Positions 1 to 13,530 of a stretch of DNA of 22,297 bases are shown piece by piece. The DNA comes from a virus, in IMG/VR virus record IMGVR_UViG_3300047643_000012, positions 1-22,297 of that record; one strand, 5' to 3'. Under the pieces are notes generated by a model. That model was not told the DNA's origin, made no database searches, and worked only from the letters and a program-made list of their open reading frames with translations. Made by a program: the position numbers and the translations under genes. Numbering within the stretch: position 1 is the stretch's first letter; each line of letters opens with the position of its first letter.

Positions 1-73
1 GCGTAAACATCAGGCCCGCGATCAGCATGGCCGCGAAGATAACGCCAAACTTTCCAAGAATATTTCTTTTCAT
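1..73 (-). CDS. Small protein with N-terminal hydrophobic segment, 3' end outside window
   Basis: Only the first 24 codons are visible, running off the left edge. The protein starts MKRNILGKFG and continues into a hydrophobic stretch (VIFAAMLIAGLMF), which looks like a signal peptide or membrane anchor. A strong Shine-Dalgarno GAGGAGGAA lies 7-8 bases before the ATG. It is the first gene after the capsid gene, on the same strand, so it probably belongs to the late head/tail operon. No family can be named from this fragment. Confidence 0.6.
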   Translation of the reverse strand, partial: MKRNILGKFGVIFAAMLIAGLMFT

Positions 74-183: not shown

Positions 184-2715
184 TTACACGCTGGCTTTAT
201 AACCGGTGCGGAAGTCGATTACCGCGCCCGCGTATTCATGGCGAATCTTGTGGCGGATTTTGTCGGCCACGAAAACCTGTTCGCTCTGCGGCATGTCGGC
301 CACAAACAACTCCGGATCCTCGCGCCCGTTCAGATAACCCATTTCCACCATGTCGCAGATGTTGGGCGGAAGCAATAGGCCCCAATCATTGGCATCGGTG
401 AAGAGAGGACAAATAACCGGATTGACTTTGCCCTTTAAGGGATTGGACACTTTTGTCGTCAGGTCATTGCTGGAATAATAGAAATCGTCATTGGCGACTT
501 TATTGATCAGTTCCATGATGTCGATCGGGCCGACCAGATTCGGTTTAACGCTCGGGTCTGAAAGCAGGCCGATGCGCTCGCCGGAATCCTTTTCCGTCAT
601 GCTGCCGAGAGCCTTGTAAGCTGTCAGAGCGGTGGAAAATGTTAATGCCGCAGTTCCCAGGTTGAGATGAGCGCCCGCGCCGGTGAACCAGGCCGTGCCG
701 TCCGAACAATTGGCGTTGTTGATGAACATATTCCAGACATACTTCGCGTGGGTGCGCCGTGCAGCGCGACCCAGACCGTCAATCAATCTCTGGATGATAC
801 TGATATCATCGTTGATGATGGTCTTGCGGGTAATGGTCAGGATATTACCCTTCTGTCCGATGGCATAACTGGACTCTTCATCCGTCACACCGGCAATTTC
901 TTTATAATCTCCGCTTTCCGGATCCACATCGGCAAGATCGGAGAAACCGCCGACAAGAACCGCTTCCTGAGTACGGAAATCCTTGACCGGTTTTTTAACC
1001 GAGATCAGCAACTCTTCCAGATAGGCGATGGCTTTATAAACCTGAACAAGTCTGCGGCCCAGCGTATTGCCCAGCACATAGGTAAACGTGCCGCTGTTTA
1101 CGTCCATGCTGCCGCGCAGTTCGGACGTCAATGCCTTGCGGTTGAATGTGCCCCTTACTTCCGGATCGCCGGTGAAATAGGTATACATTTCCCTGAGACT
1201 GGAGAAAGCGGGCACCTTGTCAAAATCATCATAATCCTGGACGCTCCGGACATCGGCAAAATACGGTTTATGATCCAGCCTGGTTAACTGCGCCAGGCGA
1301 ATCATTTCGTCTTTTTTGAGGCCGAACATCTTGTCTGCCGCCATGCAGGCGCGGTCGAAAGAACCGAGACCGCCGCTGATGGTGCCTGCACCCACCATCG
1401 CAATAGTCTGCGAAGTATTGATCTTGGCCAGATAATCCTTTTCATCGGCGATGGCTTTGTCCAGATCGGCAGACTGGAAAACTCTGCCAACGAACTGGCC
1501 TTTGATGCGTTCCACGGATACGGCAGGCAGACCCAGATCGGCATCAGCCAGTTTCTTGTCGAGCGACATTTCGCAACGCATAGTGGCGAGCTCGTCTTTG
1601 GTGACAAGTTTATCCTTGTCGATTCCGTCGCCTGCAGGCGGTTCCATCGCCATGCGGGCCAACGCTTCAATGTCCTGATTGGTCAGGGTAGCCTCATCCT
1701 TCCCCGTCAGGAGGTCGGGTCTTTTCTGCTTAATAATTGCTAAAAGCTGTTTCATAGAATTATCCTCCTCGTTTTGGGCCAAAGGCAAGCCTGCCACTGC
1801 CCTGATAAATTTTCCGCCTGCGGCGGGTCTGCTTACGACATCGAGCGAATCCGCCCGATTGAAGCCATCAATTCTTATTACCGGTTTTCCGTCAATTTGC
1901 GTCTGGACTCCGCGAATTTTCGCGTCCCAGGATAAACCATAAACGTTTCTTCCCTGACTCATGGCTGCCAGCATATTTTTGCCCATCCATTTGGCGCTAT
2001 CCAGAAAATGAACAATGCCCATCAACCCCCGTCCGGCTGCATATTTTACATTGTCAAGCCAGCCCACTTTATTTTTAACCAGGAGGGACTTGAGATCAAA
2101 CAGAGGACTCGGAACATGCGTCGCGCCGGTCGGCAATTCATAGAGATTAACATCGAGACCTTCAAACGCAGCGGCAGTATCAGCGCGGCTAAGCATGTCT
2201 TCAGGCATGTAAAAGCCGTTCTTCGTAAATTTGGGTTCGCAGACAATGACATCCCATTCCGTTCCCTCCGGATTTTTGGCCTGTGCCATTCTTACGACCA
2301 GAGAACATTCATCTATGCTAATATGCTCATCCAGCGAGAGACCCATTGCGGCGGCTTGCGCTTCCGACCATGTCTGAATCACTTCCACGGACGTATCTCC
2401 CAGGGTGACTTTGCCGTCCATGATCGACCATGCGATCTTGTAATGATGGGCTTCCAGTTCGTAAATCAGATAGGCAGGATAGACCTCTTCGATATATGCG
2501 GATGATTCTATAAGATCAGAACTTGCCTGTGTTTTATCAAATCTTGCGTGAATTGCCTGTCTCAGCAGGTCTTCGATATCATCCATGCTTAAATCCGCCG
2601 CCATGCGGGCCAGCGTTTCTATTTCCTGATCGGAAAGTTTGTCCGGATCCTTGCCTTCCAATAGAGCGGGTTTTTTTATCCTGATCAGGTCGAGTTGCTT
2701 TTGTCTCTTTTTCAT
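184..2715 (-). CDS. Prohead protease fused to major capsid protein
   Basis: One uninterrupted frame of 843 residues (ATG at 2715 behind AAAGGTG; a GTG at 2724 is an alternative start). Residues about 55-320 resemble a phage prohead maturation protease: the block KNGFYMPEDML, then VGWLDNVKY, then GLSWDAK with the likely catalytic serine, then VVSRPAAGGK, the usual end of this family. From about 321 onward is a Mu gpT-like major capsid protein, with ITRKTIINDDIS and a C-terminal IRHEYAGAVIDFRTGY, forming the icosahedral shell. Mu encodes the protease/scaffold (I/Z) and capsid (T) as separate genes. Here no stop codon separates them, but a strong internal start at 1755 would give capsid alone (523 residues). 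A roughly 32-residue module near the N-terminus of the protease recurs at the N-terminus of the capsid half. Domain assignments are by family resemblance. Confidence 0.85.
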   Translation of the reverse strand: MKKRQKQLDLIRIKKPALLEGKDPDKLSDQEIETLARMAADLSMDDIEDLLRQAIHARFDKTQASSDLIESSAYIEEVYPAYLIYELEAHHYKIAWSIMDGKVTLGDTSVEVIQTWSEAQAAAMGLSLDEHISIDECSLVVRMAQAKNPEGTEWDVIVCEPKFTKNGFYMPEDMLSRADTAAAFEGLDVNLYELPTGATHVPSPLFDLKSLLVKNKVGWLDNVKYAAGRGLMGIVHFLDSAKWMGKNMLAAMSQGRNVYGLSWDAKIRGVQTQIDGKPVIRIDGFNRADSLDVVSRPAAGGKFIRAVAGLPLAQNEEDNSMKQLLAIIKQKRPDLLTGKDEATLTNQDIEALARMAMEPPAGDGIDKDKLVTKDELATMRCEMSLDKKLADADLGLPAVSVERIKGQFVGRVFQSADLDKAIADEKDYLAKINTSQTIAMVGAGTISGGLGSFDRACMAADKMFGLKKDEMIRLAQLTRLDHKPYFADVRSVQDYDDFDKVPAFSSLREMYTYFTGDPEVRGTFNRKALTSELRGSMDVNSGTFTYVLGNTLGRRLVQVYKAIAYLEELLISVKKPVKDFRTQEAVLVGGFSDLADVDPESGDYKEIAGVTDEESSYAIGQKGNILTITRKTIINDDISIIQRLIDGLGRAARRTHAKYVWNMFINNANCSDGTAWFTGAGAHLNLGTAALTFSTALTAYKALGSMTEKDSGERIGLLSDPSVKPNLVGPIDIMELINKVANDDFYYSSNDLTTKVSNPLKGKVNPVICPLFTDANDWGLLLPPNICDMVEMGYLNGREDPELFVADMPQSEQVFVADKIRHKIRHEYAGAVIDFRTGYKASV
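1753..1770 (-). promoter_or_regulatory. Internal ribosome-binding site and ATG for the capsid part
   Basis: On the minus strand GAGGAGGATAATTCTATG places a near-perfect Shine-Dalgarno 7-8 bases before an in-frame ATG at 1755. The encoded start MKQLLAIIKQ is the natural beginning of a separate capsid gene. This predicts a 523-residue capsid protein (184-1755) made in excess over the fusion. Confidence 0.75.
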
Positions 2716-2757
2716 TGTCTTCACCTTTCACCCTTTACAATTCACAGGGATTTATTT

Positions 2758-3006
2758 TCATGCCCCGGTAATGGGTTTTTTCTTCGGTGCCTTATTAACG
2801 CCGGTGATAGCGACAATGCTCAACTTTTCCGGTTTATCGCCATCCTTGAACCGTACTTTTGATCCGCCAATGGTTACAATAACCGCTTCGCCGGTTACTT
2901 CATCGTAGCGGCTTCCCGCTACAAATTTTGAATCGATGCCGAAAGCATCACATGCCGTTGCAATTAATTTGTCTCCGATTGCGTTTCCATCATTTTTGGG
3001 TGGCAT
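2758..3006 (-). CDS. Conserved small phage protein of unknown function
   Basis: An 82-residue protein starting MPPKNDGNAI, preceded by a strong TAGGAGGAAATGAACA ribosome site. The middle reads as short beta-strands (EAVIVTIGGSKVRFKDG), and the end is lysine-rich (APKKKPITGA). It lies between the MuF-type head morphogenesis gene and the protease-capsid gene, so a role in head assembly or decoration is likely by position only. I do not recognise the family. Confidence 0.7.
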   Translation of the reverse strand: MPPKNDGNAIGDKLIATACDAFGIDSKFVAGSRYDEVTGEAVIVTIGGSKVRFKDGDKPEKLSIVAITGVNKAPKKKPITGA

Positions 3007-6904: not shown

Positions 6905-7409
6905 ATATTTCCTCTCGTATGATCCTCAATGTTTCCGGATCCAGAGACTTCTTGCCTCCGGTGGTTGTCTTATCTTCGATATTTTTCAAAGCTGCAGCGG
7001 CTTTCTTGCGTGTCTCCGCCATCCACTTCTTTTGATCCACGGACGCCTTACTGAGTTTGGCGATCATCACGCCCATCTTCGGCAGATTGTCTGCATTTTC
7101 CGCGTCAGTAAGCGCCTCAAAGGCTTTAGTCTGCACCAGGCGGATCAGGGCTTCATTCATATTGCCTTCATCATCTTTGGCCGCTTCGGCCACGGCGCGG
7201 GCCTGTTCTGTGGCCAATGCGATCGCAGCCAGTCGCTCTTCAAAATCCTGGCCATAACGATGGAGCGATGAGCGCGATATGTTAAATCCATTTGTTTGCA
7301 ACCATTCAGCCAAAGCGCCGTAGTCGCAGAATTTACCTGCGACCAGTTTCTGATTTAACTCAGCCAGAATATTTTCGGGCAGTGTTATGACTTTTGAACG
7401 TTGCGGCAT
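6870..7409 (-). CDS. DUF3486 protein, small terminase (Mu gp27-like)
   Basis: A 179-residue protein starting MPQRSKVITLPENI at 7409, behind GGTGACAAT. The frame is open 20 codons upstream, but the family normally begins with this P-x-R-S-K motif. The N-terminal half has the DUF3486 pattern L-A-E-W-L-Q-x-N-G-F-x-I-S-R-S-S-L-H-R-Y-G (an HTH), followed by a long helical, alanine-rich region and a basic tail. It recognises phage DNA for packaging and partners the large terminase encoded next. Its start sits 3 bases from the stop of the preceding gene. Confidence 0.88.
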   Translation of the reverse strand: MPQRSKVITLPENILAELNQKLVAGKFCDYGALAEWLQTNGFNISRSSLHRYGQDFEERLAAIALATEQARAVAEAAKDDEGNMNEALIRLVQTKAFEALTDAENADNLPKMGVMIAKLSKASVDQKKWMAETRKKAAAALKNIEDKTTTGGKKSLDPETLRIIREEIYGIVPASSTAN

Positions 7410-7413
7410 ATTG

Positions 7414-7719
7414 TCACCATTTTTTCGGGCGTGCGATGCCCGGATAACATTCGACAGAATATTCAACAAAATCTATGCCGTGATTGTTAATCTTGGCGAA
7501 CCATACAGGACGGTTTTTTTCGACACTGATGAGTTTTCGTTCAGTGAGATAATCAAGTTGGTTGCGTGCTTCCAGTTCGGTAACTCCAGGAATAATCGAA
7601 TCTACCGCAGTGCGGATAATAATTTCTGAAGTGCCTACCGGCTGTGCTGCATAAAGCGCGCGCAGAATGAGCCACCGTAATTCTTCACGTCGCGCTTTTT
7701 CCATATCCATTAAAGTCAT
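7414..7719 (-). CDS. Winged-helix protein, Mu gp26-like
   Basis: A 101-residue protein, ATG at 7719 behind AGGAGAGTGACCG. The pattern LRWLILRALYAAQPVGTSE, then a helix, LDYLTERKLI and RPVWFAKINNHGIDFVE is a winged-helix fold of the kind encoded just before DUF3486 in many Mu-like phages. The role is unknown; proximity to the terminase pair suggests packaging or late regulation. Confidence 0.75.
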   Translation of the reverse strand: MTLMDMEKARREELRWLILRALYAAQPVGTSEIIIRTAVDSIIPGVTELEARNQLDYLTERKLISVEKNRPVWFAKINNHGIDFVEYSVECYPGIARPKKW

Positions 7720-7722
7720 CGG

Positions 7723-8052
7723 TCACTCTCCTGATGGTGAAGGAAATTTTTTATCAATAAGGTCTCTTAATTTATCCAGTTTGTCGTTTATTCCGACATC
7801 GAAACGGATGAAATCCTCTCTGCGTACATACTTTTCCGGTAAATCTGCTTTCAATTGCATCAGGTCTTTTTCAACTTTGCGGCACTCTTCGGAAATATCA
7901 CCGACGCCGGATATTTTTGCGGTCAGTTCCTCTTTTAAAGAGTTCATCACACGGGAAAGCATGATTTGAAAAACAGTGACAAGAAGCGCGCCCCAGATAC
8001 CCATCACCGTTATCATTGCAATGAATAATTGCATGTGATCTATTTCGTTCAA
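7723..8052 (-). CDS. DUF2730-like membrane protein, Mu gp25-like
   Basis: About 109 residues from a TTG at 8052 that overlaps the previous stop (TTGA) and follows GAGGAGAAATGGACA; an ATG at 8034 and a GTG at 8091 are alternatives. One N-terminal membrane segment (LFIAMITVMGIWGALLVTVF) is followed by a charged helical/coiled-coil region and LPEKYVRREDFIRF, the typical ending block of the DUF2730 group. In Mu-like phages this gene stands immediately before the gp26-gp27-gp28 packaging genes, as here. Function is not known. Confidence 0.75.
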   Translation of the reverse strand: MNEIDHMQLFIAMITVMGIWGALLVTVFQIMLSRVMNSLKEELTAKISGVGDISEECRKVEKDLMQLKADLPEKYVRREDFIRFDVGINDKLDKLRDLIDKKFPSPSGE

Positions 8053-8297
8053 ATGTCCATTTCTCCTCTCTTTTCTTTCCGTGTCTGGCACTCTATGCAG
8101 CGTCTGGCTGCTGGATTTGCCTTCAGCCTATTGGCCGGAATCGTTTTGCCGCAATCTTCACATTCTCTGTTTGTCGTTGCGGGAATGTAGGGCGTGTTCC
8201 CCGAACGCGCCGAATTCCGACCGGCAAAATGTTTATCGAGCGCGTTCTGTCGAAAAATCTGATCATATTCCTGCGCCTTGTCGATACTGTCGCCCAT
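8049..8297 (-). CDS. TraR/DksA-type C4 zinc-finger protein
   Basis: An 82-residue protein. The C-terminal half has a four-cysteine finger, CEDCGKTIPANRLKANP then RRCIECQ, the arrangement of phage TraR/DksA-like proteins. Full-length TraR/DksA proteins act on RNA polymerase through the secondary channel; acidic residues in the N-terminal helix (MGDSIDKAQEYDQ) would be needed for that. It sits between the lysis-type membrane proteins and the packaging genes, as in several Mu-like phages. It could tune host or phage transcription late in infection, which is inference. Confidence 0.85.
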   Translation of the reverse strand: MGDSIDKAQEYDQIFRQNALDKHFAGRNSARSGNTPYIPATTNRECEDCGKTIPANRLKANPAARRCIECQTRKEKRGEMDI

Positions 8298-8298
8298 G

Positions 8299-8544
8299 CT
8301 ATTTCAATATGGCTTTGATTTTCTCAACATCAGCGACGCCGGTTTTAAAAGCCTCAATTACAGATGTCGCCTTCGCTGTTAAAGCCGCATCCAGGGCAGC
8401 TTCATCAGCTGCAATTTTTGCCTGTGCAGCGGCGATTTTTGTTGCATTGTTTTTATAAATGTAAAAACCGCCAATCACGCCGATTGCTGAAGATATTGCT
8501 GAAGCTAATAAAATCATGAGTAAAAGCTGTATCAATGTAAACAT
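8299..8544 (-). CDS. Small protein with one membrane segment and helical tail (i-spanin candidate)
   Basis: An 81-residue protein from ATG 8544, which has GGAGGG at good spacing; an ATG two codons up overlaps the previous stop but lies directly against the GGAGGG. One N-terminal membrane segment (about residues 3-30) is followed by an alanine-rich helix (ATKIAAAQAKIAADEAALDAA). The shape fits an inner-membrane spanin or a lysis accessory protein, and it follows the holin candidate. No o-spanin-like lipoprotein is visible nearby, so the function is tentative. Confidence 0.65.
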   Translation of the reverse strand: MFTLIQLLLMILLASAISSAIGVIGGFYIYKNNATKIAAAQAKIAADEAALDAALTAKATSVIEAFKTGVADVEKIKAILK

Positions 8545-8546
8545 GG

Positions 8547-8795
8547 TCATCCCTCCGTTTCTTTTTTATTGTTTTCCGCAAAGCGTTGAATTACTTTGCA
8601 CGTAAAAGCCGTGGAAAATATCGCCACGGTTCCCCACGGTATATCGCTAATCGTACCCGATTTGATGCAATTGAATGTCCAGACAGACATGATGTCAGTA
8701 ACTACAACCGCACTGAGTATTCTGGTTAAGGATATATCTCCCACACCGAATATCCTGGTCAAAATCGAGCCTATTTTTTTAATTAGTTCCTTCAT
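8547..8795 (-). CDS. Holin candidate, two membrane segments
   Basis: An 82-residue protein with an amphipathic N-terminus (MKELIKKIGSILTRIFGV), two hydrophobic segments (about residues 24-45 and 52-72, the second with IPWGTVAIFSTAFTCKVI) and a charged C-terminus (NNKKETEG). Size, topology and charged tail match phage holins, which permeabilise the inner membrane and set lysis timing. It is in the same operon as the endolysin, three genes downstream. Ribosome site is weak. No specific holin family is recognised. Confidence 0.65.
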   Translation of the reverse strand: MKELIKKIGSILTRIFGVGDISLTRILSAVVVTDIMSVWTFNCIKSGTISDIPWGTVAIFSTAFTCKVIQRFAENNKKETEG

Positions 8796-8809
8796 TATTT
8801 AATTGAAAA

Positions 8810-9028
8810 TTACCCTTTCAAAACATCTGGTATCTCTACCGCCGCAATATCATCGATGTGCAGACAGTCTTTTATATTCACCCACGGATCATTGGGTGAA
8901 GCCATTGCCAGTCTTCCATTGCAAGTATCTGATTGTGCATTTAAGGTATGTAAAATACCGAATTGTTTTTGAGCAACATTAACAACAACATCTCCTTGCT
9001 TTGCTTCTCTTCCGTTTTTGTAATGCAT
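8810..9028 (-). CDS. Conserved small phage protein of unknown function
   Basis: A 72-residue protein starting MHYKNGREAKQGDVVV, behind a strong AGGAGGAATT ribosome site. The opening Y-K-N-G-R-E-A-K-x-G-D-x-V pattern is seen in many small phage proteins of unknown function with a beta-rich core. It lies inside the lysis gene group. Confidence 0.7.
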   Translation of the reverse strand: MHYKNGREAKQGDVVVNVAQKQFGILHTLNAQSDTCNGRLAMASPNDPWVNIKDCLHIDDIAAVEIPDVLKG

Positions 9029-9047
9029 AATTCCTCCTTTTATTTTC

Positions 9048-9611
9048 TTAAAACCTATACTCTGCCTGGATCATTGCTTTGCCATCGCCCAGGGAGTTGA
9101 CTTCACCATACAGTCCCAGGTGAACAGAGCCAACGCGAACAACATCCCATCGGCCATAAACATCCGCCTCATAATTAATTTTAGATGCGGATCCAAAACC
9201 GTAACGCAATCCGATCGCTTTTTTGTTTTCCAATGCAAAAAAGGAAAGAGGCTCCTGCTTGGTAACAATTTCAGTGGTGCCTTTGTCGGTGTCCATGACA
9301 GCCACAATATCGGTTTTCCCGGTGGTATCGGTTGCGGGAGTTTGAGCCGTGGCGACAACCTGTTCTTTATCGTTGCTGGCAATTTCATCCGGCAGTTTAA
9401 GTTTTTTTGAAACAATCTTCTTATCGAGAGCGACAATTTGTTTGATGGGTATATTCACGGTGGGAATATTCACCGCTTCGGGAATCGCCGGTGCTTTTGT
9501 ATAGTTTGTCGTCGATTGCGTTGACGGATTGTGATACCAAAACCAGATGGCAATAATTACGGTAACAATAACAACTGCGATTACGGCTGTGATTGATTTT
9601 TTTATTGTCAT
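9048..9611 (-). CDS. Membrane-anchored protein of unknown function in lysis region
   Basis: A 187-residue protein from ATG 9611 behind AGGAAAAAGAC. A single strong N-terminal membrane segment (VIAVVIVTVIIAIWFWYH) is followed by a proline/valine/isoleucine-rich linker and a helical KKIVSKKLKLPDEIA segment. The C-terminal half (about 120-187) is beta-rich, with aromatic-glycine alternation, and ends AEYRF, a terminal phenylalanine like outer-membrane barrels. It would be anchored in the inner membrane with a periplasmic domain. Its place directly after endolysin makes an envelope role (spanin-like or exclusion) possible, but nothing in the sequence proves it. Confidence 0.7.
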   Translation of the reverse strand: MTIKKSITAVIAVVIVTVIIAIWFWYHNPSTQSTTNYTKAPAIPEAVNIPTVNIPIKQIVALDKKIVSKKLKLPDEIASNDKEQVVATAQTPATDTTGKTDIVAVMDTDKGTTEIVTKQEPLSFFALENKKAIGLRYGFGSASKINYEADVYGRWDVVRVGSVHLGLYGEVNSLGDGKAMIQAEYRF

Positions 9612-12723: not shown

Positions 12724-13530
12724 TCACACCTCTTTTAAAAGGCTAGACGTCTTTGCTTTCAGTTTCGCCATTGTCAGCAATGCCGGTTTAATTTCCGGTG
12801 GCATGTCTCTATATTTATTTTGATTTAATACGAGAAGTTCCGCACGGCTTACCAATTCCAGATTTTCAGGAATACAATTCATCCGATCGCCGTCTTTAAA
12901 TATTACAGCAAACCCTTTTGGTACTGGACCATGCTCACGTTCCCAAAGGACAACGTGTTTTTGTTTGAAGCGCGTTTGCGCTTTTGTATAGGGATTAGGC
13001 TCGGTTATTTTTATGTGGATATAACCATCTTTATTATCGATGCGTTCAGATCCAAGAGGTCTGGTATTGGCAGGAATCTGTCCTTTTTTAAAACTCGTAC
13101 AACTACCATGCAATAATCCTTTTGTACCTTTATCCCACGGAACATGCCCTTTGTTGAAACGCCCGGTACGTCCAGACCTGATATGATGATTACGCATAAA
13201 CGATACGATCTGCTGTTCTGTCAGAGTGGTTATAAATCGTTTATTGAATTTGGCGATCAATTCTTTCTGGCTGTATAAGGGATAATTTGTTTTTAAAAAT
13301 TTAATTTGTGACGGGACGTTTAATATCAGGAGCCGGATGCGTCCTTTGTTCAGAGCACCGGTTGACCGGCCAGAGGTTATTTTACGATTAGTAAGGGCAT
13401 TCTTAATTGCACCTTCCGTTTTATTTTTTCTGAACTTTCGATTAAAAGCACGCGTAAGTTCAGGAATCCCCATCACCGGATATCCTGTGCTTAAGAATTT
13501 AATCTGTTTAGGTGTATATTTATTTCGCAT
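12724..13530 (-). CDS. HNH endonuclease with duplicated N-terminal DNA-binding module
   Basis: A 268-residue protein. Residues about 5-63 and 72-127 are two copies of one module: each begins with a QIKFL...YP segment and ends in S-G-R-(S)-T-G-x-x-N-K-G. The C-terminal part has an HNH_3-type nuclease: KHVVLWEREHGPVPKG (H192 and H200), FKDGDRMNC (D213, D215, N218), then PENLELVS (N223). Such enzymes are often free-standing homing endonucleases in phages, cutting intronless sites in related phages and spreading their own gene. It lies in the early operon and overlaps the previous gene's end by 11 bases; its ribosome site is weak, as is common for homing genes. Confidence 0.85.
   Translation of the reverse strand: MRNKYTPKQIKFLSTGYPVMGIPELTRAFNRKFRKNKTEGAIKNALTNRKITSGRSTGALNKGRIRLLILNVPSQIKFLKTNYPLYSQKELIAKFNKRFITTLTEQQIVSFMRNHHIRSGRTGRFNKGHVPWDKGTKGLLHGSCTSFKKGQIPANTRPLGSERIDNKDGYIHIKITEPNPYTKAQTRFKQKHVVLWEREHGPVPKGFAVIFKDGDRMNCIPENLELVSRAELLVLNQNKYRDMPPEIKPALLTMAKLKAKTSSLLKEV

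Follow-up and report, generated by a model that had tools for sequence, protein, structure and literature searches.

A prohead protease-capsid fusion gene of a Mu-like phage with a conserved internal start, predicted to yield a second, scaffold-capsid product

In phage HK97, gp5 is a scaffold delta domain fused to the capsid protein, and the protease gp4 is encoded by a separate gene. In herpesviruses, UL26 and UL26.5 encode a protease-scaffold protein and the scaffold in one frame with two starts, using separate transcripts, and the capsid gene is separate. Nested genes for protease and scaffold have been described in phage KS10 (gp28/gp29; PMC2628397). Fusions of the prohead protease with the major capsid protein have been reported in Arthrobacter clusters AM, AU and AN (PMC5513430), and such fusions are already named in NCBIfam (NF045541, NF045540) and PHROGs (phrog_4523, phrog_133, phrog_29592). 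The fusion genes are thus known, while our search of the open-access literature found no report of an internal start in them. Here we analyzed a stretch of 22,297 nucleotides (IMG/VR record IMGVR_UViG_3300047643_000012, positions 1 to 22,297; hereafter the window), a Mu-like transposable phage with Mu transposase domains, a Gp27 small terminase, a large terminase, a portal and a MuF-like protein.

Domains of the fusion gene

A preliminary description of the window had placed protease and capsid in one frame; its positions were right, although the minus strand was not mentioned. The open reading frame (ORF), in which a prohead protease and an HK97-fold capsid domain are joined with no separating stop, runs uninterrupted from 2724 to 184, and its likelier start is the ATG at 2715 (843 codons). 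The features of the gene are collected in Table 1.

Table 1. Features of the fusion gene, in window coordinates.
Feature	Position	Strand	Details
Protease-scaffold-capsid fusion gene, full length	184..2715	minus	843 aa, 93 kDa; stop codon 186-184
Weaker Shine-Dalgarno (SD) of the long product (AAAGGTGA)	2721..2728	minus	-4.3 kcal/mol
N-terminal helical module of the long product	2599..2694	minus	residues 8-39; copy of residues 325-356
Prohead protease domain (S78/herpes-like)	1786..2496	minus	residues about 74-310; alignment, AlphaFold model, Foldseek
Internal SD GAGGAGGA	1763..1770	minus	-11.7 kcal/mol with anti-SD
Internal start codon ATG (Met321)	1753..1755	minus	junction ATG in 35/35 sequences; low mRNA structure
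Inner product, scaffold-capsid precursor (predicted)	184..1755	minus	523 aa, 57.6 kDa; predicted from the conserved start
Scaffold/delta-like region	1111..1755	minus	residues 321 to about 535, putative boundary; mostly helical in model; N-terminal to PF25209
Second module copy, start of inner product	1648..1743	minus	residues 325-356
HK97-fold, Mu gpT-like capsid domain	187..1095	minus	residues about 541-843; Pfam PF25209 Phage_capsid_4, E 3.7e-32

The fusion protein matched phrog_29592 over residues 90-845 (E 4.4e-75), with protease and capsid both aligned. NF045541 and NF045540 aligned to the capsid half only, at 151 of 525 and 123 of 475 bits, under their curated cut-offs (E 4e-44 for NF045541). 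By these alignments, the window fusion is a relative of both families through its capsid and a member of neither model. PF25209 is the sole Pfam domain in the ORF (residues 544-844 in the 846-aa ORF numbering).

No match to Pfam PF04586 was found in the fusion ORF, and a PDB sequence search using the family profile gave no match either. In the AlphaFold model of the fusion protein (mean pLDDT 69, pTM 0.44, capsid domain poorly modelled), residues about 74-310 form a mixed beta domain. Foldseek searches with the model retrieved T4 gp21 (prob 1.0, E 0.01, fold only) and herpesvirus proteases from the PDB, and phage capsid maturation proteases, one of them a Mu-like I protein, from viral models. 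In the alignment, His200, Ser262 and Asp292 are invariant across 30 relatives, and so are the flanking protease motifs. Alignment and model together identify an S78/assemblin-like prohead protease with the herpes-protease fold and the catalytic His and Ser. Since the triad is invariant and the fold is that of a protease, the long product is under selection as well.

The helical region from residue 321 to about 535 occupies the position of the Mu Z scaffold or the HK97 delta domain, and given this position and the moderate model (mean pLDDT 69), we regard it as scaffold-like. The two copies of the helical module are 56% identical over 32 aa by BLASTP (E 4e-10) and have a matching helix pattern in the AlphaFold model. 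At the N-terminus of the long product the relatives have swapped modules, with the helical module, a ChaB domain (L016, L022, L033), a roughly 100-aa YPATAYLYVPDP domain with no Pfam match (L001, L010, L012) or, in others, a short charged tail; in L029, the module stands in tandem downstream of the internal start.

Several neighbouring genes were also recorded. The gene directly past the capsid gene (window 1-73, minus strand; 6480-6956 in L001, the closest relative; just after 6385 in L004) looks decoration-type; its protein opens with a segment resembling a signal peptide or membrane anchor (MKRNILGKFGVIFAAMLIAGLMFT in the window), which is odd for a phage head protein, and it had no Pfam family and only a weak match to a PHROG of unknown function. 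An 82-aa protein with a strong SD lies between the MuF-like gene and the fusion gene (2758-3006, minus strand) and had no family match in NCBIfam, Pfam or PHROGs. In the early/middle gene block, a 268-aa protein (12724-13530, minus strand) is HNH-endonuclease-like by eye. Downstream of its capsid genes, L001 encodes a 672-aa protein (7327-9345) with many [SA]LDA[LF]I-type repeats.

The internal start signal in the window and its relatives

We propose, with a probability of about 0.83 as judged from sequence, that the gene is nested and that its one frame has two starts, one for a protease-scaffold-capsid protein of 93 kDa and one for a scaffold-capsid protein of 58 kDa. The SD and ATG noted earlier at 1753-1770 are present (GAGGAGGA at 1770-1763, ATG at 1755-1753) and stand exactly at the protease/scaffold junction, which reads GAGGAGGATAATTCTATG. 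The Met321 codon is the only in-frame ATG, GTG or TTG of the ORF with a 6/6 AGGAGG, and its SD duplex (-11.7 kcal/mol) compares with -4.3 kcal/mol at the gene's own start. In codon-shuffled versions of the ORF, such a site arose anywhere in 3.4% of trials, which makes the window sequence by itself modest, suggestive evidence. A local RNA hairpin governing the internal site in the window was considered and rejected (fold z 0.46).

To cover relatives, alignment-based scans were performed and returned 34 loci in viral and 5 in genome sequences; a scan of genome contigs with a single protein as query gave no match, and the 5 loci appeared once the alignment was used. After duplicate removal, 35 sequences including the window remained, the relatives sharing 46-81% amino acid identity with it. 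Protease and scaffold lie in a single frame in all 35, and in every contig that is long enough this frame continues through to the capsid. Separate genes in all relatives would have spoken against the fusion; the same fusion was found instead, with no split genes among the 35 sequences and no stop at the junction. Nor is the arrangement peculiar to this phage, being common to its relatives and to two other fusion families described below.

The junction ATG is present in 35/35 sequences and has the strongest SD among the internal in-frame ATGs in every one of them; this conservation settles, at the level of sequence, that the junction SD and ATG are not a chance occurrence. A GGAG or GGAGG core is retained, mostly 5-8 nt ahead of the ATG. 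By comparison, other conserved Met codons (355, 357, 458, 471, 706, 792) lack an SD, the median energies there being -2.0 to -3.3.

The main alternative is that only the full-length fusion is made, so that each subunit of the shell begins as a fusion from which the protease later cuts itself off, and that an acidic linker happens to spell something like an SD. The frame is indeed continuous in all relatives, AGGAGG can be spelled by a Glu-rich linker, and a per-locus synonymous test was mostly not significant (median p 0.22; Fisher p 0.0024), this test being weak because E/K-rich linkers can spell the SD. Against a linker by-product, a conserved ATG follows directly behind the motif with start-like spacing, and the motif persists with different amino acids in L026, L035 and L038. 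The codons xxG GAG G are found at the junction in 33/35 sequences, with a joint chance of 10^-21.7 given each ORF's own usage, a value that treats loci as independent and that kinship inflates. Although GAG accounts for just 14-36% of Glu codons in the window and in the relatives closest to it, the two codons at the SD are GAG GAG. Predicted mRNA folding averages -3.3 kcal/mol at the junction ATG versus -8.5 over the 657 in-frame ATGs elsewhere (p about 1e-16), and third-position A/T rises just downstream of it (0.45 vs 0.30); both are sequence marks of true start codons, and the dip in structure resembles that at real starts. We therefore consider a fusion-only gene unlikely.

A second alternative, which we hold to be very improbable, is that the purine-rich motif causes a translational pause through anti-SD pairing in elongation, so that the protease folds first, with no initiation taking place. 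The motif does lie exactly at the domain boundary, but the ATG, its fixed spacing and its unstructured state are all conserved, and none of them is needed for pausing. Least probable of all is that only the inner scaffold-capsid protein matters and the protease part is a decaying relic, as the weak long-product SD in the window might suggest, given the invariant His, Ser and Asp with their surrounding motifs in 30 relatives and the strong long-product SDs in many relatives.

Predicted products, assembly and cleavage

From the frame, the domains and the selection for the internal start, we infer how the nested gene may work. Ribosomes starting at ATG 2715 would make the protease-scaffold-capsid protein, and those starting internally at ATG 1755, with its strong site, the scaffold-capsid protein. 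In this phage the latter probably predominates, given its far stronger ribosome site; the strength of the long product's own SD in many relatives means that a ratio of much short and little long product is no rule of the family. As the scaffold and capsid parts are common to both products, the two would co-assemble into a procapsid, whose interior would hold a minority of covalently carried protease subunits. The protease would then remove itself and the scaffold, most likely cutting between scaffold and capsid domain, and leave identical mature capsid subunits.

Sequence evolution supports these proposals of the preliminary description: two products from one gene, an internal start, a protease carried covalently into the shell, and a likeness to Mu I/Z in the in-frame internal start at the protease/scaffold junction. 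Two others need revision. The inner product had been taken for free capsid; as a stretch of about 200 residues (321 to about 535) stands ahead of the gpT-like capsid domain, it would be a precursor of scaffold(delta) and capsid, comparable to HK97 gp5. Self-cleavage had been placed at or near residue 321. The linker there varies among relatives in sequence and length (EEDNS, KEDL, QEEL, NGRSV, GGRI, REDI) while the SD nucleotides stay, so the conserved feature is the RNA signal, with no evident protease site, and a cleavage site at 321 was rejected for the poor conservation of the linker as protein. A release site after the scaffold is more likely. Where scaffold and capsid would be cut is only a guess: in the model, a low-confidence variable linker at residues about 430-452, preceding a conserved GGLGSF, is a candidate.

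Other fusion families and known systems

Two further groups of fusions were collected by full-length similarity, a set biased towards fusions. S78-type queries (fusions of Pseudomonas, Stenotrophomonas, Bordetella and Rhodobacter phages) gave 80 loci with 44 representatives, and ClpP-type queries (mEp043, cdtI, Paracoccus and Synechococcus phages) gave 80 loci with 25 representatives. The junction ATG is present in 44/44 and 25/25 representatives, respectively, with median junction SD energies of -6.7 (S78-type) and -6.0 (ClpP-type) versus -1.7 and -1.5 elsewhere. The junction SD is the strongest in 28/44 and 16/25. A dip in mRNA structure is found at the junction in both groups (-4.2 vs -10.0 for S78-type; -3.4 vs -8.0 for ClpP-type). 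In two actinophages, Maggie and RRH1, the capsid part had no match to PF25209; there too the junction ATG has an SD and is the least structured in-frame ATG of the gene. We lean somewhat towards the view that nested genes with two starts are the rule among the protease/capsid fusions of tailed phages. On this view the scaffold-capsid start was kept each time a fusion arose, whether with an S78 or a ClpP protease and with a gpT-like or an actinophage capsid, and the deposited "fusion protein" represents the lesser of the two products; in the window, both products share the N-terminal helical module, which may be a docking tag.

Like the window gene, the NF045541/NF045540, PHROG and Arthrobacter fusions join a protease, a scaffold-like region and a capsid without a break in frame, and their capsid half is homologous; in contrast, their records describe one product, and the internal start, seen here in S78-type and ClpP-type fusions alike, is mentioned in no paper that our open-access search retrieved. 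If the start is nested, it resolves by a simple rule the stoichiometry puzzle of annotated fusions, in which hundreds of shell subunits and few proteases are needed, and it would mean that in many phage genomes only the long form of the capsid gene has been annotated. Herpesvirus UL26/UL26.5 resembles the window in its two starts in one frame and its related protease fold, but it uses separate transcripts instead of an internal ribosome site, and the gene for its capsid protein lies apart. Mu I/Z, KS10 gp28/gp29 and lambda C/Nu3 have an in-frame internal start at the protease/scaffold junction, as predicted here, but there the scaffold ends at a stop codon and the capsid has its own gene, whereas no stop precedes the capsid domain in the window or in any relative covering the capsid, and the frame runs through. 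HK97 gp5 is likewise a scaffold-capsid precursor, as predicted for the inner product of the window, with the difference that the HK97 protease stands in a gene of its own. The window gene would thereby link the nested protease-scaffold genes of lambda and Mu and the scaffold-capsid fusions of the HK97 type as variants of one arrangement.
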